Assembly (NCBI GenBank): GCA_022865905.1
Contig: JALHUM010000294.1
Location: forward strand, 1-35,213
Length of the DNA stretch: 35,213 bases
Direction of reading: 5' to 3'
DNA from: Anaerolineales bacterium
GTDB lineage: Bacteria > Chloroflexota > Anaerolineae > Anaerolineales > Villigracilaceae
The position numbers were made by a program, and so were the translations under genes. Shown piece by piece: positions 17,252 through 30,483 of the stretch (position 1 is its first letter; every line of letters begins with the position of its first letter). The notes beneath the pieces are model-generated. The model saw only the letters and a list, made by a program, of their open reading frames with translations. It made no database searches and was not told the origin of the DNA.

Positions 17252-20200
17252 TTACGCCATGCTGGCGCCGATTTCCTTCAGCGTCTTGACCAGGTCGTCC
17301 GGTATAAGCGCCGGGGTGACGCCCAGCATCTTGCAGGTCAGCATTTTATGCGCCGTCACCTCGACCACATCGGTCATGTCGGCCGCTCGGCGCAGGCTGC
17401 TGCCCGCCACTACCAGGCCGTGATTCTGCATCAGCGCGGCGATGCCAGTGGCGCCCATCGCCGCGGCGACCGCCTCGCCCAGCTCGTCCGTGCCGGGCAT
17501 GATGAACGGCACGACCGGCACGTCGCCGATGAAGGCCGCTTCGGTGGAGATGGGCAGGAAGTGGGTGCCGGTCAGCGCCATCAGCGTGGCTTGTGGGGCG
17601 TGGGTGTGGATGACGGCGGTGATCTCCGGTCTCATTTTGTAAATGGCACAGTGGACGCGCCGCTCGCTGGAGGCGGTGTAATCCGTCTCGTTGAGCATCT
17701 TGCCATTCAGGTCAATGCGCACCATCATGTCGGGGCGCAGATCGCCTTTGAAGATGGCGCTGGGGGTGATCCAGACCTCGTTCGGGTTGTCCTCGCAGCG
17801 GGCGCTGATGTTACCGCCGGTTGAAGTGATCAACCCTTTGGCGTATAAATCATTCGTGAGCTGTAAAATCTGGTCGCGCACGTCGCCGGTCTTGACCACG
17901 GCGGGGGCAACCTGACCTAACCCCCCCATCCCCCCTTCCCTACCAGGGAAGGGGGGTGCAGAGGGGATAGGTACAACACCCAATTTCGTCAAATCTCCGG
18001 GATCGCCAATCTTTGCGCGCGCCTCGCTGTACAGCCGCCCCATGTTCCCCTGGATGCGCATGAAAACCATCGCCTTTCCGGTATCGCCGCTGAAGGAGAG
18101 TTTTCCGCTCGTAGCTGCTTTGGTGGCGTTGACGCGGCCGGTGAACATTCCGTCCAAAATGTCAGCCACCATCTTGAGTTTCACGTCCGGCTCGCGCGGC
18201 GGAGCCTCCAGCCCGGCGCCGACCTTACCGTCCACGAAACTCAGGTAAAAGGCCTGGTCAATATCCTTGACAGTGAAGGAGAAGACCACGTTCTTGCCTT
18301 TGGCGAAATCGGCCATCGCCTTGTCCGCCGCGATGCGGGCGGTGAACTCCTTCAGGATTTGGATCATCTTCTCGCGTACAGCGCTTGTGTTGGTTGTCGG
18401 GGTGACCATTTCTTCCACCTTTCCAGTAATTGAGACTGTTTGTCTATCTGCGTACAGGACCGGCTCGGCGGCCTGTTGTTTTTGCGCGACCACATCCAGG
18501 TCGGTTGCGCCCGGACCTGGTTCCTGCACCAGTACTTTCAGCCTTTTCTCATCCCTGGGCCGCGCGCCGCTCCAAGTAAAGGAGTCGAGGGCAGCGGCGT
18601 TGAGGAGATATTTAGGCTTCCTGCCCGCCAGCAGCGCCTTCAACTCGCTGACGATGATCTCGCCCTGGTGGGCGGCCACCTCGAGGGTATTCCCGGCCAT
18701 GTGCGGTGTGGCGATGACATTCGGGAAGGCCAGCAGCGGATCGTCCGCGCCGGGCGGCTCGACCGGGAACACGTCATTGGCGAGGCCGCCCAACTTGCCA
18801 GATCGAAGCGCTGCCAGCAGCGCATCCTGATCCACCAGCGCGGCGCGGGCGGTGTTGACCAGGAACGCGCCGGGTTTCATGCGGGCGAAAGCGTCGGCGT
18901 TCATCATGCCGCTCGTTTCATCCGTGACCGGCGCGTGCAGGCTGATGAATTCGCTCTCAGCCAGCAACTGCTCGAAGGAGACTTTCTCCGCGCCCATCAG
19001 CGTGACTTGCCCGGCGGTCAGGTACGGATCGAAGAGCAGGAGGCGCGCCCCGAAGGGCAGCAGGCGCTGGATAACCTTGCGCCCGATTGCCCCGCCGCCG
19101 ACTAAACCAATCGTCTTGCGCCACAGTTCGACGCCCAGGAATTCCTCGTGCGCCTGGCCCATGCGTCCCAGGTCGCCGGCCTCGCCGCCGGGCTGGCGCA
19201 GGAACGCAGCCGCTCCCTGCAACTTGCGCGCCAGCATCAGCATGAAACTGACGGCTAAATCGGCGACGGCGTCTGCGTTGCGCGCCGGGGTGTTGACCAC
19301 CGGTACGCTAGCGGCGGTACAGGCGCGGAGGTCAATATTGACCGGGTTGCCGCGGCAGACGACGATCATACGCAGGTCGGGCAGCTTGAGCAGGCTCTCG
19401 GCATCCACAATATCTACCTCGGTGACGAAGACCTGGGTATCCTTCAGCGTCCGCACCAAGTCGTCGCCGGTGAGCAGGATTCCCTCCTGCCGGTATGGTT
19501 TGTAAACCACTTCGCCCAACTCACGCAACTGCTTCAGCGCGGCCTCGTCCACTTCGGCGCTGATGTAAATACGCGGGTGGAAGGAGGCAGTCGCCGCCAA
19601 CGAATTCATTACACCGCTCTCCGCGGCCGCTGCGCCTGACATCATCATCCCTGCGAACTGGCTGGCAGCGACCATGTCTGCCGGGCGGCGCTCCTGGCGC
19701 AGCGACTGCCAGTCGGCGTAGAGGGCCTGGTAGGTCTCCGAGTCCGCGCCGGGCTGGTGCTCACGGGAGATGTGCGCCAATTTTTTCGCGCCCGTTGCCA
19801 GGTCCGGGAAGAGACCGGCGCCAACCCCGGCGCAAATGGCCGCGCCCAGGGCGGAGGCCTCCACCGAGGCGCTGACGCGTACCCGGCATCCCATCACCTC
19901 GCTGACGATCCCCGTCCATGCGGCGCAGCGGGTGATCCCGCCGCCCAGCCAGAGGTCCGCGAGAGTCCCGCCTGAAACCTGCAGCACCTGTTCGACATTG
20001 GCGCGCACGGCGTAGGCCATACCTTCCAGGAGCGCCCGCGCCACGTCCGCCCGGCCTGCCTGGCCGTCGCGCGCCATGATGGACGAGAAGGTGAGGGTAT
20101 CCACCGGCGGTTCCAGGGCGGAGGCGTTGAAGACCGCCGCGCCGATGGTCGAGAGCATCCCGTGCGCGCCAGGCGGTGAGGCCTCGGCCTCGGCGCACAG

Positions 20201-21175
20201 CATGGCAACCGGCTCCGACGCGCTGGTGTGGATCATGCGGGCAACCCACTCCAGGCTGGAGCCCATCTGCCCAGCGTTGCTTTCCATCACGTATAGGCCG
20301 GGGATGATATGCAGGCCGGTCCAAATGCGCATCTCACCATCCACGACCGGTTTAGCGATGACCATCTGGACCGGGGTGGTTGTCCCGGCGATGACGGCCA
20401 TCTGCCCGGAGGAGACGACGCCCGCGCCGAGCAATCCGCACTGCGTATCCGGACCTCCGACCGCCACCGGGATCCCGGCGGTCAGTCCCAGGCTGGCGGC
20501 GGCTTCTTTCGTCAATTTGCCAAGGCGCGTCCCGGCGGCTTTGAGTTTAGGAAGGATACGCTCCGGCAATCCGGTCAGACTGAGAATCTCCGCCGACCAC
20601 TTGCGAGTATGCAGGTCGAAGAGCAGCGACTCGGCGGCCTGGGCCGGTTCAGCGGCGAACTCGCCGGTCAGCATGTAGCCAGCCCAGTCGCTGATGCTCA
20701 AGGCAGCGTGCGTTGACTTGAACGTCAGCGGGCGGCTATCTCTCAGCCACATCAGCCGGGCAGCCATGAAGACCGGGTTGGGGGCGTGGCCGGTGATCTG
20801 GTAGATCTCCGCGCCGTGATCCATAGCCAGCCCCATGCCCTGCTCGATGGCGCGTCCGTCCCGGTTCGGCATCGCCGCCAGGGCGTTCCCCTTGCGGTCG
20901 AGCACGGCCATCCCGTGGCGGAAACTGGTGGCGGCGACCCCGGCCACGTCCTGCGCGCTGATACCGGCCTTGTGGAGTGCTTCTTTTACCGTCTCGCCCA
21001 GGATGCGCCAGACGCCCTGCGTATCGAAGTCGAAGGCGAAGCCGCCCACGTCCGGCGCGGGGGAGTGGCTCCAGGCGCGGAAGGCGCTGACCGTCTCACC
21101 GCTCTCCACGTTGACCAGCAAACATCGTCCGCCTCCGCCGCCGATGTCGAGACCCATCAGATATTTTGCAGTCAT
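17252..21175 (-). CDS. Four-domain fusion: FGGY kinase (LsrK-like) - D-2-hydroxyacid dehydrogenase - SCP2 - class II aldolase
   Basis: Uninterrupted 1307 codons. FGGY aa ~1-495 ('GGPDTQCGLLGAG'); dehydrogenase aa ~530-860 ('GLVGGGAIGRKV', 'NTARAALVD', 'FPVEPP', 'TPHMAG'); SCP2 aa ~930-1055; class II aldolase aa ~1095-1307 ('TGGNISAR', 'ASSERRVHCAIYK', 'HTHAPQA', 'QNHGL'). Confidence 0.9.
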   Translation of the reverse strand: MTAKYLMGLDIGGGGGRCLLVNVESGETVSAFRAWSHSPAPDVGGFAFDFDTQGVWRILGETVKEALHKAGISAQDVAGVAATSFRHGMAVLDRKGNALAAMPNRDGRAIEQGMGLAMDHGAEIYQITGHAPNPVFMAARLMWLRDSRPLTFKSTHAALSISDWAGYMLTGEFAAEPAQAAESLLFDLHTRKWSAEILSLTGLPERILPKLKAAGTRLGKLTKEAAASLGLTAGIPVAVGGPDTQCGLLGAGVVSSGQMAVIAGTTTPVQMVIAKPVVDGEMRIWTGLHIIPGLYVMESNAGQMGSSLEWVARMIHTSASEPVAMLCAEAEASPPGAHGMLSTIGAAVFNASALEPPVDTLTFSSIMARDGQAGRADVARALLEGMAYAVRANVEQVLQVSGGTLADLWLGGGITRCAAWTGIVSEVMGCRVRVSASVEASALGAAICAGVGAGLFPDLATGAKKLAHISREHQPGADSETYQALYADWQSLRQERRPADMVAASQFAGMMMSGAAAAESGVMNSLAATASFHPRIYISAEVDEAALKQLRELGEVVYKPYRQEGILLTGDDLVRTLKDTQVFVTEVDIVDAESLLKLPDLRMIVVCRGNPVNIDLRACTAASVPVVNTPARNADAVADLAVSFMLMLARKLQGAAAFLRQPGGEAGDLGRMGQAHEEFLGVELWRKTIGLVGGGAIGRKVIQRLLPFGARLLLFDPYLTAGQVTLMGAEKVSFEQLLAESEFISLHAPVTDETSGMMNADAFARMKPGAFLVNTARAALVDQDALLAALRSGKLGGLANDVFPVEPPGADDPLLAFPNVIATPHMAGNTLEVAAHQGEIIVSELKALLAGRKPKYLLNAAALDSFTWSGARPRDEKRLKVLVQEPGPGATDLDVVAQKQQAAEPVLYADRQTVSITGKVEEMVTPTTNTSAVREKMIQILKEFTARIAADKAMADFAKGKNVVFSFTVKDIDQAFYLSFVDGKVGAGLEAPPREPDVKLKMVADILDGMFTGRVNATKAATSGKLSFSGDTGKAMVFMRIQGNMGRLYSEARAKIGDPGDLTKLGVVPIPSAPPFPGREGGMGGLGQVAPAVVKTGDVRDQILQLTNDLYAKGLITSTGGNISARCEDNPNEVWITPSAIFKGDLRPDMMVRIDLNGKMLNETDYTASSERRVHCAIYKMRPEITAVIHTHAPQATLMALTGTHFLPISTEAAFIGDVPVVPFIMPGTDELGEAVAAAMGATGIAALMQNHGLVVAGSSLRRAADMTDVVEVTAHKMLTCKMLGVTPALIPDDLVKTLKEIGASMA
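17917..17971. repeat. REP-like palindrome inside the fusion ORF
   Basis: CCTAACCCCCCCATCCCCCCTTCCCTaccAGGGAAGGGGGGTGCAGAGGGGATAGG; perfect 12-bp arms at 17930-17956. Confidence 0.9.
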
Positions 21176-21189
21176 ATCCTTGCTCCTTA

Positions 21190-21210
21190 GTCAGGTGACA
21201 GTCACCTGAC
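21190..21210. repeat. Perfect palindrome GTCAGGTGAC-A-GTCACCTGAC
   Basis: 10-bp arms; contains the stop codon of the epimerase gene. Confidence 0.95.
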
Positions 21211-22191
21211 ATACTCGTTTGCCCGGTACCACGCCACCGATTTGCGCAGCGCCTCGCGCGCCGGGATAAAAGTGTATCCAAGTTCGCGCGCCGCCTTGCT
21301 CGAATAGTAGTACTCCTTCTGACGCGAGAGGCGCACCTTCTCCGGCGTGGCGGCCGGGACGTGACGTGGGTTCAGACGCGCCAGGCCAGTGTCCACGTAG
21401 GACCAGGCCAGCGCGACGCCGTGCGGGATGCGCATCCACACCTGCGGCAGCCCGGAGACCTCCGAGAGCAGGTCGAGCACCTGCTTGAGCGTCAGGTTCT
21501 CCCCGCCCAGGATATAGCGCTGCCCTACGCGTCCGCGCTCGGCAGCCAGCAGATGACCGGCAGCCACATCCTCCACGTCCACAATGTTCATGCCGGTCTC
21601 TACGTAGGCAGGCATCTTCCCGTTGAGAAAGTCCACGATCATCTGGCCGGTGGCAGTCGGCTTGTGGTCGCCCACCCCAACCGGCGCGGCGGGATTGACG
21701 ATGACCAGCGGCAATCCCTGGCGGGCAAATTCACGGGCGACTTCCTCGGCCATGAACTTGGAGCGCTTGTAGTGGCCTGTCTTGTCCGCCAGCGTGACGG
21801 GCGTCTCCTCATCCGCTGGAACGTCGTCCCTGGGCAGCCCCAGGGTGGCAATCGAGCTGGTGTAGACGATGCGGCGAGCTCCGGCTTGACAGGCGACATC
21901 CAGCACGCGCCGCGTGCCTTCGACATTGGTCTGGTAGAACTCTTCCCACTCGTGGCCCCAATAACTATACAGGGCGGCGACGTGGAAGACCCACTCGCAG
22001 CCGACCATCGCCTGCTGAAGGATGGAGACATCGCTCAGGTCGCCGCTCACACGTTCGACGGGAAGACTGTCCAGCATACGGGTATTTGTCCCGGGTCGCA
22101 CCAGGGCGCGGACCTCGAGACCAGCTGCCAGTAATTTGCGGATTACCGCGCTGCCAACAAAACCGGTGCCGCCGGTTACAAAGGCTTTCAT
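21202..22191 (-). CDS. NAD-dependent epimerase/dehydratase (dihydroflavonol-reductase/HpnA-like)
   Basis: 'MKAFVTGGTGFVGSAVIRKLLAAGLEVRALVRPG', 'YKRSKFMAEEVAREF' (YxxxK). Confidence 0.92.
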   Translation of the reverse strand: MKAFVTGGTGFVGSAVIRKLLAAGLEVRALVRPGTNTRMLDSLPVERVSGDLSDVSILQQAMVGCEWVFHVAALYSYWGHEWEEFYQTNVEGTRRVLDVACQAGARRIVYTSSIATLGLPRDDVPADEETPVTLADKTGHYKRSKFMAEEVAREFARQGLPLVIVNPAAPVGVGDHKPTATGQMIVDFLNGKMPAYVETGMNIVDVEDVAAGHLLAAERGRVGQRYILGGENLTLKQVLDLLSEVSGLPQVWMRIPHGVALAWSYVDTGLARLNPRHVPAATPEKVRLSRQKEYYYSSKAARELGYTFIPAREALRKSVAWYRANEYVR

Positions 22192-22204: not shown

Positions 22205-22300
22205 GACCTCACTCTCCCCCCCCCCGTCCCTCCCCTTCCCTCTCCTATAAGGAGATGGAAGGGGAGAGTGGCCGAAGGCCGGGAGGGGTAGGGTGAGGTC
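22205..22300. repeat. REP-like intergenic hairpin
   Basis: Outer GACCTCAC...GTGAGGTC, inner CCCCTTCC...GGAAGGGG. Confidence 0.8.
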
Positions 22301-23456
22301 AATCTATCTCCATCAACATCGCACACAAAATATCCGTCGCCTGCCACAGGGTCTCCTCGGAAACAGTGTCCGGCGTATCGTCAGGGCGGTGCCAGTGCGG
22401 CAGGCTGCCAGTCTGCGGGTCGCGCCCGGCAATGCCGATGGCGCGGTAACCGCGCCCGCGCAAGGTGCGGACATCGTCCTCCGCCAGCATTTGCGCTGGC
22501 CGGAATTCGAGTTCCGGGCGGCTTTTGGAAACACGTTCGGCGACAGCCAGCAGGTCGGTGGTGGGATGGTAGGGCGCGCAGATGCCCTGCCGCGTCAAGT
22601 AGACGATCTCGCCGCTGCCCAGTCCCTCCAGGCCGATAAAAGCCGCCTCCCGCAGGTCAGGGCCGTGGCGGCGCAGCAGGTTGAGCGTCCCGGCGTGGTC
22701 GGTCTCCTCGGCGCCGTCGAAGACGAACCAGACTTCCGTGTTTTGCAATGGCGCAGTCGAGATACGGGCAGCCACTGCCAGGGCTACGGCCACGCTAGAG
22801 GCGTTGTCGTGCGCGCCTGGGCTGTAGGGCGTGCGGTCGTCCCGGATCAAGGTAATGAATGCCCCGAGCTCGTAGGCCGCCAGCGGGAGCGACAGCCACC
22901 AGGACCAGGCCGGACCGCCGAGCATTGCCCCGACCAGGTAGAGCGCACCCATGCAAACCGGGACGGCAAGCGTCAGCCAGGTCATTGGCTCGATTTTCTT
23001 CACTGCCAGGGACTGCCAGACCAGGCGGCAGCAGTTGGTATCCAGGTGCGCCAGGAGAACAACCTTCCGGTGCGGTTCACCCTTCGGCTTGAGTCGCGCT
23101 TCGACGTTCTGGCTGGACACCTTGGGCAGCAGCGCGACCAGCGGATTGAAAGCCGCGTTGCGGATGGTCTGCCAGAGCAACCAGCCTGCAATCAGGCTGA
23201 AGGCGGATGCCAGCCCGCGGGTGATGACCCTGCCCAGGGGGTAGATCAGCGCTGCTAGTACCGCGATCAGGCTGATGGCAATCGGAAAGGCGTTCTGGCT
23301 GGGGACTGAGCGAAAGGTGTGTTTTTCGGGGACGAGTCCCAGGTCCGCGAGACGCATCGCCACGTAGTCGGCCGCGGCTGCCTCGGCGGGGGTGCCGGTG
23401 CCGCGCGGGCCGATGATCCCGGCCAGGGTACGGACATCATCCAGTGGTGTGCTCAT
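22299..23456 (-). CDS. M28 family metallopeptidase with internal TM segments
   Basis: 'VVLLAHLDTN', 'GAHDNASSVAVAL', 'FDGAEETDHAG', 'PHWHRPDDT'; start at 23456 (MSTPLDD) overlapping the upstream stop. Confidence 0.85.
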   Translation of the reverse strand: MSTPLDDVRTLAGIIGPRGTGTPAEAAAADYVAMRLADLGLVPEKHTFRSVPSQNAFPIAISLIAVLAALIYPLGRVITRGLASAFSLIAGWLLWQTIRNAAFNPLVALLPKVSSQNVEARLKPKGEPHRKVVLLAHLDTNCCRLVWQSLAVKKIEPMTWLTLAVPVCMGALYLVGAMLGGPAWSWWLSLPLAAYELGAFITLIRDDRTPYSPGAHDNASSVAVALAVAARISTAPLQNTEVWFVFDGAEETDHAGTLNLLRRHGPDLREAAFIGLEGLGSGEIVYLTRQGICAPYHPTTDLLAVAERVSKSRPELEFRPAQMLAEDDVRTLRGRGYRAIGIAGRDPQTGSLPHWHRPDDTPDTVSEETLWQATDILCAMLMEID

Positions 23457-24838
23457 GAACTCATGGCTTGTTTGATGAGTTCGCCGCTTGTGGCCCACAC
23501 ACGGCCTTTTAGGTTTTTGGTCTCATGCATGATCGTATCGAAGGCCTTGACGATGGCATCCACTTCTTCGTCGCCGATGATGAGCGGAGGCAGCAACTTG
23601 ACGATGTTGACACCCGGGCCGCCGACCTGGGTCAACATGCGATGGTCGCGCATCAAGGACATGACAACCAGTTGTGTAAAGAGGCCTTTCTCGGCCGCTT
23701 CGATGGCCGTCCAGGCGGCCCTGAGGCCGAGGGCGCTCGGCGGACGGAACTCGATGCCGATGATCAGACCCTTGCCGCGCACGTCGGCGATCATCTCGTG
23801 GTGGTCTTTGAGAGCAGCCAGCCTGGCGAGCAGCTTCGCCCCGACCGTGGCGGAGCGTTCGATGATCTTCTCCTCGTCCATCACGTAGAGGGTCGCCAGC
23901 CCGGCGGCCATGCCCATCTCGTTCTGGCCGAAGGTGGTCGAGTGAACCTGGGCGCGCTTCAGGTGGCCGAAGACCTTGTTGTTTATCTCCCGCCGCATGA
24001 TGACCGCGCTGACCGGGACGTACCCACCGCCCAGCGACTTGGCGAGCGTGACCATGTCGGGTTCCAAGTTCCAGTGCTCGCAGCACAGGAATTTACCGGC
24101 GCGCCCCATCCCAACTTGTACTTCATCGCAGATGAACAGCGTGCCATACTTGCGGCACAGACGCTGCTCCTCGGGCAGGTAATCATCTTCTGGAATATAC
24201 ACGCCCTTGCCCTGGATCGGCTCGACGATGAAAGCGGCCACGTCGCCCTTGCGCAGCTCCTTTTCCAGCGCATCCAGGTCGTTCATCGCGACCATCGCGG
24301 CGCCGGGGATGAGCGGCTCGAAGCCCTTGCGGAAAGCCTCCCCGCCGTTGATCGAGAGCGTGCCGAGCGTCAGGCCGTGGAAGGCGTGGTCGAGGAAGAC
24401 GATGCGCGGCCTTTTTGTAGCGTAACGGGCAAACTTGAGGGCGGTGTCCACGGCATCGGCCCCGGAGTTGGCGAAGAAGATCGCCTCCAGTCCCGGCGGC
24501 ATACGCTTTACCAGCTCCTCCGCCAGCAGACCGGCCAGCAGCGGACAGTCCATCTTGACCAGGTTAGGCCGCTCGAGCATGAGCGCCTCCTGCATGGCCT
24601 TTTTGATGACCGGGTGGCCGCGCCCCAGGTTGAAGACGCTGAATCCGGCGAGCAGGTCGAGGTAGCGGTTGCCGTCCGCATCCCACAGATAAGCGCCTTC
24701 CCCGCGCGTGTACAGCTTGTCGAAGCCGATGATCTCCTGAACGCGCGCCATTTGCGGGCTGATGAAACGCGTGTGCAGGGAATATTGATTGGCTTGGCGC
24801 GCCTCGATAAGTTGGGTTAAAGAGAATGTCATGGTCAT
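23453..24838 (-). CDS. Class III PLP-dependent aminotransferase
   Basis: 'FFANSGADAVDTALKFAR', 'FICDEVQVGMGRAGKF', 'TLAKSLGGGYVPVSAVIMR', 'HSTTFGQNEMGMAAGLA'. Confidence 0.93.
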   Translation of the reverse strand: MTMTFSLTQLIEARQANQYSLHTRFISPQMARVQEIIGFDKLYTRGEGAYLWDADGNRYLDLLAGFSVFNLGRGHPVIKKAMQEALMLERPNLVKMDCPLLAGLLAEELVKRMPPGLEAIFFANSGADAVDTALKFARYATKRPRIVFLDHAFHGLTLGTLSINGGEAFRKGFEPLIPGAAMVAMNDLDALEKELRKGDVAAFIVEPIQGKGVYIPEDDYLPEEQRLCRKYGTLFICDEVQVGMGRAGKFLCCEHWNLEPDMVTLAKSLGGGYVPVSAVIMRREINNKVFGHLKRAQVHSTTFGQNEMGMAAGLATLYVMDEEKIIERSATVGAKLLARLAALKDHHEMIADVRGKGLIIGIEFRPPSALGLRAAWTAIEAAEKGLFTQLVVMSLMRDHRMLTQVGGPGVNIVKLLPPLIIGDEEVDAIVKAFDTIMHETKNLKGRVWATSGELIKQAMSS

Positions 24839-24854
24839 ACCTCCATGAGTGTCT

Positions 24855-24927
24855 CCCTCATCCCCGCCCCTTCTCACGAGGGGAGAAGGGAGTCCCCTCT
24901 CCCTCCGGGAGAGGGCTAGGGTGAGGG
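24855..24927. repeat. REP-like intergenic hairpin
   Basis: Outer CCCTCA...TGAGGG; inner CCCCTTCTCacgagGGGAGAAGGG and CCCTCTCCCtccGGGAGAGGG. Confidence 0.8.
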
Positions 24928-26868
24928 AACTGTTTCCAGCCCCAATTCCTTCACCGTCTCCGGCAGGGGCAGGCCGGTGAGGGGGTCGAGTCCGAGCGTG
25001 GCGAAATACCCGGCAGCCATGGCATCCATGTCGAGGGTGCGGTTGGCGACCGGGCCGAGGGTCTGCGGTGGGTCGCCGCGCTCGCGCCCCGGCAGCGGGA
25101 ACTGCGCCGGTAATCCATGCCTAGCGTTGAAGGCGTGGCGCATCACCTGGATGCGCCTGCCAATGAGATAAAACTCCGCTTCATCCACGCCCCAGCCTGT
25201 CGCAGAGTTCAACCACGCCAGGAAGGGAGGCTGCCCCATCGCCAGGGCGAACTGGCACAGGCCAAGCGAATCAAAGGTGCGGTAGAGCGACATCGAGATG
25301 GCCTGTGTGACACCCTTCCCGGCGTAGTCGTAGCGCTTGGCAGGCTGGCGGCCGAGCAGGGCGAAGTAGGGGGCAAAGGAAGCGACTTCGGCATTGCCGG
25401 AATTGGTGGATGTGTGGCGGCCCGGCGCCGGGTCGAGGGCGTAACCGGCCGCGACGCCCGGCTCGTAGAGGCCACGGTGCATCGAGAGCTCCTGTCCCCC
25501 GGCGTGCATGGCGGCTTCCTGGGCTTCGGGGCCAAGTTGACGGACAGCCTTCGCCACGCCGTCCGCCAGCCAGTCGCCCAGGCCGGGGGTCCGTGCGGCG
25601 ATGCGCTGGGTTAGTTCCAGGATGACCTCGCCGCTCCCCCATTCCAACGGCAGTTCAGCGGCCAGTTCGGGCGGCAGCCAGCCCTTTTCGGCGCATTCCA
25701 GCGCGAAGGCGACCGCCACACCCGCCGAGATCGAATCCAGCCCGGCCATATTGCAGACGTGATTACAGCGCATGATCGTCCCCAGGTCGCTGTTCATCAA
25801 CAGCGGCCCGAAGGCGGCCAGCGCCTCGTACTCGGACTTGTAGCTTGTCCCGCCATCCGGCGCGTTGACGATGCCCCCGCACGCCACCGGGCAGGCGTGG
25901 CAGGCGTAAGGCTTGACCATCGGGCGGATGACAGCCCGGTCGCTCAGGCCTTCGGAAAGCTCCAGCGGGAAGTCGCGGAACCCGATTCCGCTCCAGTTGC
26001 GCACCGGCGTGTCACCCAACTCGACCAGTATCGCGGTCCCAGCGGATGTTCCGTACCGCTTGTACGAATCCACCACCATCTCGGCCGGGCCGCTGCTGAT
26101 CTGCCCTCGCAGCCTCCGGATGATGGGCAGAAGGAAGCCCATGAAAGCCGGGACTCGGGCGGACATTGTGGAGGGTTTGCGCTGGAATAAGGGAAGATAG
26201 CCAGCCGAGGCATCCTTGAACGCCTTCGCGTCAGCCAGCGGCAATCGCGACCTGCCACGTGCCACCACTGCCTTGAGCCTTTTCGACCCCATGACCGCCC
26301 CCAGCCCGCAACGCGCCGCCAGTCTCCCATCGTCGTTGACGATGCCGGAGATGAGCGAAAGCCTCTCACCCGCCGGGCCGATGCAGGCGACTTTGGCCTG
26401 CGGGCTGATTTCTTTGTGCAGGGCTTCTTCTGTTTGGCGCACATCCAGCCCCCACAAATGGGAGGCGTCTTTGATCTCGGTTTTCTCACCGTCCACAAAC
26501 AGGTAGACCGGCGATTCCGCCTGCCCGCTGATAAACAGGCCGTCATAGCCTGCGCCGCGCAGCGCCGGGCCAAAATTCCCGCCACAGTTGGCGTCCCCCC
26601 ACGCGCCGGTCAGGGGCGAGCGCGCCGCCACCATGAAGCGTCCGCTGAACTGCGCTCCAGAGCCGGTCAGCAGGCCGGGGAGGAAGGCAAGAATGTTATC
26701 GGGGCCGAGCGGATCGGCGTTGGCCGGGATGCGTTGATAGAGATAATGCACGCCCAATCCGTAACCGCCAAGGTAACGGCGGTAGATTTCCTCCGGCGGC
26801 TGCTCTACTTCGATTTGACCGGTGGAAAGGTTGACTAAGATGATTTTGCCCCAGAAACCGTTTGGCAT
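24916..26868 (-). CDS. Aldehyde:ferredoxin oxidoreductase family protein (tungstopterin type)
   Basis: 'NGFWGKIILVNLSTGQIEVE...RYLGGYGLG', 'CHACPVACGG' cluster ligands, 'DSLGLCQFA' C-terminal Cys. Confidence 0.93.
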   Translation of the reverse strand: MPNGFWGKIILVNLSTGQIEVEQPPEEIYRRYLGGYGLGVHYLYQRIPANADPLGPDNILAFLPGLLTGSGAQFSGRFMVAARSPLTGAWGDANCGGNFGPALRGAGYDGLFISGQAESPVYLFVDGEKTEIKDASHLWGLDVRQTEEALHKEISPQAKVACIGPAGERLSLISGIVNDDGRLAARCGLGAVMGSKRLKAVVARGRSRLPLADAKAFKDASAGYLPLFQRKPSTMSARVPAFMGFLLPIIRRLRGQISSGPAEMVVDSYKRYGTSAGTAILVELGDTPVRNWSGIGFRDFPLELSEGLSDRAVIRPMVKPYACHACPVACGGIVNAPDGGTSYKSEYEALAAFGPLLMNSDLGTIMRCNHVCNMAGLDSISAGVAVAFALECAEKGWLPPELAAELPLEWGSGEVILELTQRIAARTPGLGDWLADGVAKAVRQLGPEAQEAAMHAGGQELSMHRGLYEPGVAAGYALDPAPGRHTSTNSGNAEVASFAPYFALLGRQPAKRYDYAGKGVTQAISMSLYRTFDSLGLCQFALAMGQPPFLAWLNSATGWGVDEAEFYLIGRRIQVMRHAFNARHGLPAQFPLPGRERGDPPQTLGPVANRTLDMDAMAAGYFATLGLDPLTGLPLPETVKELGLETVPSP

Positions 26869-26886: not shown

Positions 26887-27633
26887 TTACTTTCGCCGCT
26901 CCCGCCGCAGGCTGGCGCGGAAGCGGTCGCCGCGGTGGATGGTCTGTGTGAAGACGACCGGCGTGTCATTGGCCAGACAGCCCAGGGTGGTGACCAGCAC
27001 GATTGGCGCGCCCTCGTTGACTTTAAAGTTCTCAGCTTCGTATGCCCCGGCGACTGAAATCTCGATGGTATCCACGGCATAGGCTGGCGCAATGCCGTAG
27101 CGTTGCTCGAGAAAGCGGTAGATGCTGGCGTCGGTCAAGTCGGCTTCGGCCAGGTCAGGGAAAAGTGAATGCGGATAGAACGATGTTTCCAGCGACATGA
27201 TCTCACCGGCGGCCAAGCGCGTACGCACGATGCGAATGATTCGCTCGCCAGTGGCAAGCCTCAATTGCGCCGCGACCTCGGCAGAGGCAGGGAGTACTTC
27301 TTGCGCCAGAACCCGCGCCCCTGCGCTCATGCCAGCCTGGCCCATGATCTCGGTGTAACTCATGCCCGTCACCTGCACGTTCGGCAGGATAGTTTTTGGG
27401 GCGGCGACGAACGTCCCCCGGCCGCGCTGACGGATGACCAGCCCCTCATTAGCAAGTTGCGTCAGCGCCTGGCGTGCGGTCATGCGAGAGACGCCCGTCT
27501 CGGTGCAGAGTTGCGCTTCGGAGGGCAGCGTGTCGCCAGGCTCGAGTTGGCCGCTCGTGATCTGCTGGCGTAGTTGTTCGCGGATTTGATAGTAAAAGGG
27601 GATGGGGCTGGTTGTGTCGAGGCGTAGAGGCAT
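26887..27633 (-). CDS. GntR family regulator, HutC/UTRA subfamily
   Basis: 'YYQIREQLRQQITSGQLEPGDTLPSEAQLCTETGVSRMTARQALTQLANEGLVIRQRGRGTFVA' plus a UTRA-like C-terminal domain. Confidence 0.96.
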   Translation of the reverse strand: MPLRLDTTSPIPFYYQIREQLRQQITSGQLEPGDTLPSEAQLCTETGVSRMTARQALTQLANEGLVIRQRGRGTFVAAPKTILPNVQVTGMSYTEIMGQAGMSAGARVLAQEVLPASAEVAAQLRLATGERIIRIVRTRLAAGEIMSLETSFYPHSLFPDLAEADLTDASIYRFLEQRYGIAPAYAVDTIEISVAGAYEAENFKVNEGAPIVLVTTLGCLANDTPVVFTQTIHRGDRFRASLRRERRK

Positions 27634-28844: not shown

Positions 28845-29612
28845 CTATTTTGCCACCCAGCCGCAGTCCACCAGCCAGTCCGCGCCGGTTACGAAAGACG
28901 CGCCCTCGCTGGCCAGGAAGTAGACCGGCTCGGCAATTTCAGCCGGGTCGGCCCAGCGCTGGAAGGCCTGCTCGGCCTCGCGCTCCTTCTTAACCTGCTC
29001 GAAGGGAATGCCAGTACGCTTCGACTCCAGTTCGATGTCGCCGCGCAGCATGGGCGTATCCACCGAGCCGGGGCTGATCGAGTTGACACGGATGTTGTAC
29101 GGGGCCAGCTCCCAGGCCAGGGCGCGCGTCATGGCGATGATCGCCCCCTTCGTTGCCCCGTACATGACGTGGTCGGTCTGCCCGACGTGCCCCGAAACCG
29201 ATCCCATGTTGACGATCACGCCGCTCTTCTGCGCTTTCATGTACGGCAGCACGTACTTGCACAGCAGAAAGTGCCCGCCCAGGTTGATGTCAACGGTGCG
29301 CTTGAACTCGTCCCAGGTGATCTGGTCGAAGGGCTTGACCAGCACCACCCCGGCGTTGTTGACCAGCACGTCCACTCGCCCGTATTTTTCTCCAACCTTG
29401 TGGATGCAATCCGCCACCTGTTTCTCATCGGATACATCGCAGACGAAGAAAGCGCATTCTCCCCCATGCCCGCTGACCTGCTCCGCGACTTTTTGCCCCT
29501 CTGGTAATATATCCAGCCCGATGACGGCGTAATCGTGTTTTGCAAAAACTTGCACGCACGCCGCGCCGATTCCCCGCGCCGAGCCGGTGATGATGGCAAC
29601 TTTCATACTCAT
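28845..29612 (-). CDS. Short-chain dehydrogenase/reductase (SDR)
   Basis: 'VAIITGSARGIGAACVQVFA', 'NNAGVV', 'YGATKGAIIAMTRALAWELAPYNIRVNSISPG'. Confidence 0.95.
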   Translation of the reverse strand: MSMKVAIITGSARGIGAACVQVFAKHDYAVIGLDILPEGQKVAEQVSGHGGECAFFVCDVSDEKQVADCIHKVGEKYGRVDVLVNNAGVVLVKPFDQITWDEFKRTVDINLGGHFLLCKYVLPYMKAQKSGVIVNMGSVSGHVGQTDHVMYGATKGAIIAMTRALAWELAPYNIRVNSISPGSVDTPMLRGDIELESKRTGIPFEQVKKEREAEQAFQRWADPAEIAEPVYFLASEGASFVTGADWLVDCGWVAK

Positions 29613-29630
29613 GATACCTCCTCGCACTCA

Positions 29631-29672
29631 CGGCGGGGCTTCGCGAAGTACTCCCGAAGGGAGAAGCCCCGC
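29631..29672. terminator. Intergenic GC hairpin downstream of BKACE gene
   Basis: CGGCGGGGCTTC...GAAGCCCCGCCG; no clear U-tract. Confidence 0.45.
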
Positions 29673-29679
29673 CGGAAGC

Positions 29680-30483
29680 TTATAAACCGATCATCTTCCT
29701 CGCCTGTTGGACAGTCGCCAGCGGACGGCCGAGGGCGCGCGCCATCTCAGCGGTTTCCTTGACCAACTCGTGCGTTGGCACCACCTTCCCGCTGTGGTCG
29801 TAGGGATGATCCTCTGTCCCGACGCGCACATGGTCGCCGCTAACGATAGCGGCGGTCAAGATGTCGCGCTGCCCCTCGCCCAAGGTGGTCGCGTGGTCGG
29901 CGACCATAATGCTGACGTTGCAGACGCAGCCCTCCGGCATGAGTCTACGGCGGTAGAGATACTCCTCAACGGTGGGCGGACTCCACGTCCCGCCCGGCCA
30001 GCCGAAGAACAGGGTGGCCACATAGGGGGGCTTGAGCAGTTTCCTGCCGATAAGATAGTCCAGGTTCCAGACCGACCCGGCGTGCCAGACCTCCCATTCG
30101 GGGATGACGCCATACTTCCTGCACAGGAGGCAGTATTCTACCAGTTCCTGGCGCAGGTGCAGAACGTTGCACTCGGTCTGGGTGAAGGCCTCGTCGTGAT
30201 GGTTCAGGATGACCGAGATCATATCCGCTTTATTCTCGTAAACCTCCATCCGCTCTGAGATGGGCAGGCTGGACATGCCGCACTGCACGATGATGTCGCA
30301 GCGAGCGCGCACGGAGTCGATGGTCTCCTTCCACTTGCCTTCGGCATGGGTGTGCAGGATGGCCGCGCCGTTCTCGCAGCAAAGCCGGGCTTCTTCGGCG
30401 ATGGCTTGCGGCGTGCGCGGGTAGTCCACCTGCGGGTGCAGCCAGGAGATGTTGGGCGTGGCGGTGATGATGAGAGGGGGCAT
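29680..30483 (-). CDS. BKACE (3-keto-5-aminohexanoate cleavage-like, DUF849) family protein
   Basis: 'MPPLIITATPNISWLHPQVDYPRTPQAIAEEARLCCENGAAILHTHAEG', 'VRVGTEDHPYD'. Confidence 0.88.
   Translation of the reverse strand: MPPLIITATPNISWLHPQVDYPRTPQAIAEEARLCCENGAAILHTHAEGKWKETIDSVRARCDIIVQCGMSSLPISERMEVYENKADMISVILNHHDEAFTQTECNVLHLRQELVEYCLLCRKYGVIPEWEVWHAGSVWNLDYLIGRKLLKPPYVATLFFGWPGGTWSPPTVEEYLYRRRLMPEGCVCNVSIMVADHATTLGEGQRDILTAAIVSGDHVRVGTEDHPYDHSGKVVPTHELVKETAEMARALGRPLATVQQARKMIGL

Follow-up and report, generated by a model that had tools for sequence, protein, structure and literature searches.

A single gene of an Anaerolineales bacterium encodes a genuine, conserved multifunctional enzyme, in which an FGGY kinase, a D-2-hydroxyacid dehydrogenase, a lipid-binding-type SCP2 domain and a class II aldolase follow each other on one polypeptide, and this gene comes with a conserved operon. 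It lies on contig JALHUM010000294.1 (assembly GCA_022865905.1), of which the 35,213 nucleotides analyzed here are called the window (coordinates in Table 1). A preliminary description of the window had reported an open reading frame (ORF) of 1307 codons without giving its strand, had recognized four domains with intact catalytic motifs and had considered this single-polypeptide architecture unusual. All of this stands. Re-reading places the ORF on the minus strand, with an ATG start and zero internal stops, and Pfam finds all domains in the described order and over the gathering cut-off: FGGY_N (amino acids 5-250), FGGY_C (259-452), 2-Hacid_dh and 2-Hacid_dh_C (538-859), SCP2 (943-1041) and Aldolase_II (1102-1276). 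Catalytic positions were located in all three enzymes, i.e., R86 and D243 in the kinase, the GxGxxG motif (GGGAIG, 693-698) and the Arg/Glu/His triad (R777, E806, H825) in the dehydrogenase, and the catalytic E1171 with the metal-binding H1190, H1192 and H1252 in the aldolase. They are invariant in each fusion that spans them (20 sequences). The gene represents a natural four-part pathway enzyme with a lipid-binding module within a sugar-type pathway. No paper describing the fusion turned up in the open-access literature, neither for the combination of FGGY, SCP2 and 'class II aldolase' nor for that of FGGY, 2-hydroxyacid dehydrogenase, class II aldolase and operon, and the enzyme and its pathway appear to be undescribed so far.

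Relatives and genome contigs were searched, followed by the order, phylum, family and class (G labels denote genomes and L labels loci). The fusion occurs as a full-length single ORF in 16 other genomes, at approximately 48-75% identity and across about ten families and two classes. Counting the window, the 17 genomes comprise G036, G313 (L038), G780 (L039), G781 (L040), G782 (L041), G843 (L044), G357, G541, G1078, G411 (from another class of the phylum), G1033, G857, G1029, G877, G946 and G804; several further copies are interrupted by contig ends. The aldolase subfamily is present in 20 of the 396 genomes of the class sample (E <= 1e-60), indicating that the fusion is a widespread yet minority trait. 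Its domains are under purifying selection, as the pairwise ratio of nonsynonymous to synonymous substitution rates (dN/dS) is approximately 0.07-0.41 in every computable segment, linkers included. Because of the 16 other full-length ORFs and the low dN/dS, the continuity of the frame between the domains is confirmed and an assembly artefact is ruled out as the origin of the fusion. A search of plasmids yielded no fused form, but an unfused three-gene operon instead. The fusion has been kept across a bacterial class that is seen here mostly through metagenome-assembled genomes.

Deletions and frame breaks concentrate in the dehydrogenase (around amino acids 640-850) in four copies (L072, L077, L083 and L088). 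The dehydrogenase of G357 is short by around 41 residues, and those of G700, G078 and G046 contain breaks; in G700, the break is a single extra C inside a run of C, probably a sequencing error. The dehydrogenase is therefore either locally less constrained or harder to assemble, and the four cases may reflect either real decay or assembly trouble. In G001 (L010; L045:4127-6124, minus strand), a Ser/Thr-kinase-like N-terminus is in frame with the second half of the dehydrogenase, which is probably a chimeric contig. This locus was excluded as evidence for the fusion and served only as coding sequence in the dN/dS comparison.

In the window, the fusion is the last gene of an operon that starts with a GntR-type regulator, followed by an aldehyde:ferredoxin oxidoreductase (AFOR), a class III aminotransferase, an M28-family metallopeptidase-like protein and an HpnA-like short-chain dehydrogenase/reductase (SDR). 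The identical six-gene operon is found in G946 (L127) and G804 (L128), both from other families, with intergenic gaps of around 10 bases or overlapping genes; the SDR is conserved at the same place in both (67-68%). The order also recurs in G009 (L049), where the contig ends within the fusion. G078 carries the same gene set in a different order, plus a major facilitator superfamily (MFS) transporter and with no GntR in view. The gene immediately preceding the fusion is AFOR in G357, G411 and G877 and an aldehyde dehydrogenase (ALDH) in L038, L044, G541, G700 and G1078; in G078, AFOR immediately follows it.

The preliminary description had also read the fusion as a pre-assembled pathway. This is supported by the conserved six-gene operon and by G360 (L081), a genome of the same taxonomic order, where the same parts occur unfused. 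Behind the gene of a SorC-type regulator, those of FGGY kinase, dehydrogenase, AFOR, stand-alone SCP2 and aldolase follow consecutively on one strand; these five share 32-45% identity with the corresponding parts of the window. In G133, an SCP2 gene is divergent from an unfused aldolase. Together with the stand-alone SCP2 of G360, this indicates that SCP2 is a pathway member rather than a chance insertion. In the kinase tree, the fused kinases form one clade (100/96), adjoining the kinases of the G360 and G028 operons; the dehydrogenase tree agrees weakly with this grouping (77/68). The fusion enzyme would derive from the joining of an ancestral operon. Like a Rosetta stone, fusion and operon link several activities to one pathway, and the substrate becomes directly searchable.

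We propose one multifunctional catabolic enzyme that arose from a fused operon. The FGGY kinase would phosphorylate a ketose-like substrate, which the C-terminal aldolase would then cleave into triose phosphate and an aldehyde. AFOR from the same operon, or ALDH in other lineages, would oxidize the aldehyde, and the D-2-hydroxyacid dehydrogenase would interconvert the resulting 2-hydroxyacid and 2-oxoacid. SCP2, held on flexible linkers beside the aldolase, would bind a hydrophobic substrate, product or partner, and an internal start would provide a second, shorter product (see below). Aldehyde release by the aldolase is proposed mainly because an aldehyde-oxidizing partner gene recurs. The observed basis comprises the fusion, its conserved catalytic residues and purifying selection, the unfused operon, the operon with AFOR or ALDH and a conserved Shine-Dalgarno (SD)-ATG site; from there we infer the order of steps, the substrate class, ligand binding by SCP2 and the use of the internal start. 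To the account as a whole, we assign an even chance of being right.

Several observations weigh against it. No part receives a substrate name from curated models, as equivalog scores are far under the cut-off. At five fusion loci (G036, G1033, G857, G1029 and L041), no aldehyde-oxidizing gene is in view. The internal start is missing in the deep-branching fusions G036, G541, G411, G946 and G804 and is confined to the clade of the window. In the aldolase tree, unfused aldolases are nested among the fused ones, a sign that parts were later lost or exchanged. Finally, alphaproteobacterial operons (Paracoccus, Shinella and Sinorhizobium) encode the three enzyme families in identical order, but unfused and in the neighborhood of ABC transporter genes, with no SCP2 or aldehyde oxidase nearby. 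Only their dehydrogenases group with those of the fusion (99/96), while kinase and aldolase are distant.

The aldolase domain aligns to the L-fuculose-1-phosphate aldolase FucA (1dzw and others), with which it shares the class II fold, the HxH + H metal site (three His) and the catalytic Glu. It differs from FucA in being the C-terminal domain of a fusion and in scoring far under the curated cut-off of that family. Among the 25 families displayed, no cut-off of a named aldolase, epimerase or decarboxylase is reached, and the scores for 3-oxo-tetronate-4-phosphate decarboxylase (100.7 bits), fuculose-phosphate aldolase (96) and ribulose-phosphate epimerase (113.7) are about equal. These scores leave room for a sugar-acid pathway, in which the dehydrogenase would take the first step, on an aldonate or keto-aldonate, the kinase would phosphorylate the keto acid, and the 'aldolase' would be a decarboxylase of the 3-oxo-tetronate-4-phosphate type. 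Uronate genes near L038 (beta-glucuronidase, uxaC and mannonate oxidoreductase), beta-glucuronidase near L087 and L119, and a 2-keto-3-deoxygluconate (KDG) kinase with Eda in L041 agree with such a pathway. We nonetheless judge it unlikely, as a decarboxylase gives no aldehyde, though the fusion is most often accompanied by AFOR or ALDH, and the FucA-type catalytic Glu is present.

The kinase part had been called LsrK-like, with an autoinducer-2 (AI-2)-like substrate among the suggestions. The likeness stands as far as structure is concerned: the closest solved structure is that of E. coli LsrK (5ya0; 1.7e-73) by a wide margin over the runner-up (2.6e-34), the part has the FGGY kinase fold and catalytic Asp of an AI-2 kinase, and the equivalents of Ser91, Arg93, Asp253 and Glu308 are retained. 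It does not extend to AI-2 kinase identity. The score of 308.6 bits for the NCBIfam AI-2 kinase model NF008187 is below its cut-off of 528, and six out of ten residues of the putative pocket for the AI-2 precursor 4,5-dihydroxy-2,3-pentanedione (DPD; residue list from PMC8016206) differ, with T21, M92, V254, F276, Q278 and I310 of LsrK replaced by G, F, T, T, P and N, respectively. In addition, LsrK lacks the three added domains, and no lsr-type transporter, lsrF or lsrG lies alongside the window gene. One may still envisage AI-2 degradation, with the kinase yielding phospho-DPD and the remaining domains degrading it, in particular as the fusion of G036 and the unfused operon of G360 both follow a SorC/LsrR-type regulator. 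However, SorC regulators serve many different sugars, and the regulator of the window operon is of the GntR type. Such a degradation route is very improbable, and based on these residues and scores an AI-2 role of the fusion is unlikely.

The SCP2 domain scores 54.4 bits against a Pfam gathering score of 21.3, and matches SCP2 and fatty-acid-binding proteins in the PDB (2.4e-5 to 4.4e-4). Two SCP2 domains occur in L039, L040, L041 and G357, and a remnant plus a full copy in L044. The flanking linkers vary strongly in length and sequence and are rich in Ala and Pro (30% and 32%, versus 16-22% in the domains; 20 sequences pooled, the second value including the SCP2 copy in double-SCP2 rows); those of the window are at the low end (18% and 24%). 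A palindromic genome repeat of around 60 bases is inserted in frame in the SCP2-aldolase linker. Such tolerance, the variable linkers and the aldolases that have split off again in G359, G016 and G020 would fit a fusion that is a neutral by-product of operon compaction, its parts acting separately and SCP2 being a structural spacer or dimerization module. Yet the conservation of SCP2 (80-87% identity among close relatives; dN/dS of 0.07-0.15) is about that of the dehydrogenase and aldolase, SCP2 has a gene of its own in the unfused operon, and many families have retained the fusion; these points render neutrality a rather weak candidate. Besides the repeat in the window, similar Pro-rich peptides of the form SPLPxLGEGxGVR are present in linkers of G001 and L043, with a related peptide in L039.

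A bolder version of the proposed catabolic enzyme would make SCP2 a mobile carrier, like acyl-carrier or lipoyl domains. It would hold the hydrophobic tail of an amphiphilic substrate, for example a lipid with a polyol or amino-polyol head (sphingoid base or bacteriohopanepolyol type), while kinase, aldolase, dehydrogenase, AFOR, aminotransferase and SDR act on the head group, and the same frame would also give the SCP2-aldolase via the internal start. The Ala/Pro-rich linkers and tandem SCP2 copies are compatible with this role, which we regard as decidedly speculative. AlphaFold models of both fusion halves (mean predicted local distance difference test values of 41 and 45, from 7- and 8-row alignments) are too poor for judging the ligand tunnel. 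If SCP2 carries intermediates, a non-covalent carrier domain would join the short list of swinging-domain systems. SCP2 is likewise attached to catabolic enzymes in the peroxisomal multifunctional enzymes SCPx and MFE-2, and the Scp2 gene yields a fused and a short product (PMC4762939). These, however, act in fatty-acid oxidation, carry SCP2 at the C-terminus instead of between dehydrogenase and aldolase, and have non-homologous enzyme parts.

The preliminary description had further allowed for internal starts that give four separate proteins. This is partly borne out, by one strong site at Met923. An SD-like sequence, GGAAAGGTGG, lies five bases upstream of this ATG at the start of the SCP2 region, and its codons 918-921 (GGA AAG GTG GAA) are unchanged in the five closest relatives (20 out of 20 codons versus a gene-wide rate of 56% at identical residues), making it the top five-codon window of the gene for synonymous identity. 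Its anti-SD pairing (-11.8 kcal/mol) is the strongest among the 53 internal in-frame ATG sites of the window gene, a strength that synonymous reshuffling matches in 2-4% of trials. The same site ranks first in L039, L040, L041, L043 and G357. All the sequences compared here are kin, and none of these counts is independent. In G359 (L074), a short gene encoding an SCP2 stub and the aldolase starts at the equivalent ATG, behind AGAAAGGTAGAAGGC. Met923 is thus a probable second start in the clade of the window, which would also make a short SCP2-aldolase, probably as extra aldolase subunits for oligomers. A comparable arrangement exists in cas8 genes with an internal cas11 start (PMC11899642), where one reading frame also encodes its C-terminal part as a separate protein, started at an internal SD-ATG; the proteins are unrelated, and the short product of the fusion is predicted from sequence. 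The site offers a clear test case for dosage control of a single part within a fusion enzyme. The internal start, the AFOR/ALDH partner, the conserved operon and the tandem SCP2 variants all go beyond the preliminary description.

Table 1. Positions of the fusion gene, its parts and the accompanying operon genes in the window.
Feature	Position	Strand	Evidence
Fusion gene: FGGY kinase - D-2-hydroxyacid dehydrogenase - SCP2 - class II aldolase	17252..21175	-	Pfam; 16 other genomes
FGGY kinase domains, aa 5-452 (kinase part reaches ~aa 497)	19820..21163	-	PF00370/PF02782
D-2-hydroxyacid dehydrogenase, aa 538-859	18599..19564	-	PF00389/PF02826; R777/E806/H825, GGGAIG
SCP2 lipid-binding-type domain, Pfam core aa 943-1041	18053..18349	-	PF02036 (1.8e-14); PDB matches; dN/dS
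Class II aldolase, aa 1102-1276, FucA-type E + HxH + H site	17348..17872	-	PF00596; alignment to FucA
Internal SD-like site, codons 918-921	18415..18424	-	Synonymous identity; anti-SD pairing
Predicted internal start ATG (Met923), 385-aa SCP2-aldolase product	18407..18409	-	Anti-SD pairing; short gene of G359
Palindromic genome repeat, in frame in SCP2-aldolase linker	17911..17975		38 matches in own genome, many on both strands
HpnA-like SDR	21202..22191	-	TIGR03466, 431.6 bits (cut-off 367.65)
M28-family metallopeptidase-like protein	22299..23498	-	PF04389
Class III aminotransferase, closest to PigE	23453..24877	-	PF00202; PDB 4ppm, 271 bits (next 227)
AFOR	24916..26868	-	PF01314/PF02730; 1aor, 1.5e-96
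GntR-UTRA regulator, first operon gene	26887..27633	-	PF00392/PF07702; same place in L049, L127, L128

Two of the other operon genes touch on the nature of the substrate. The next-best family models of the SDR after HpnA are SdmB and OleD, which are lipid-acting enzymes, and PigE is associated with the aliphatic aldehyde 3-acetyloctanal. Taken together, the PigE-like aminotransferase (for PigE, see e.g., PMC8341465), the HpnA-like SDR and SCP2 hint at a substrate with a hydrophobic part. Hopanoid synthesis, as the HpnA likeness might imply, is not supported, since the squalene-hopene cyclase family PF13249 has no match in the own genome (94.7% complete).

In G020 and G016 (L046:14221-15129, plus strand; L047:6227-7777, minus strand), a GntR-type DNA-binding domain is fused to the same aldolase subfamily. 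The aldolase is 68-72% identical and the GntR part resembles that of the window operon at 54-70%, as though a deletion had brought the two ends of the operon together. The catalytic residues are kept, and the regulator may therefore sense its ligand via the enzyme domain. Just upstream of the window operon (28845-30483), an SDR and a beta-keto acid cleavage enzyme are encoded. Both also occur upstream of the L041 fusion (82% and 74% identical, respectively) and may belong to the same metabolism. Beta-glucuronidase genes recur near ALDH-type fusion loci (L087:4284-6446, minus; L088:5170-7320, minus; L119:2573-4723, minus; L038:13873-16023, plus), and the unfused Paracoccus operon (L090) has a GH2 gene, uxuA and an arylsulfatase nearby.

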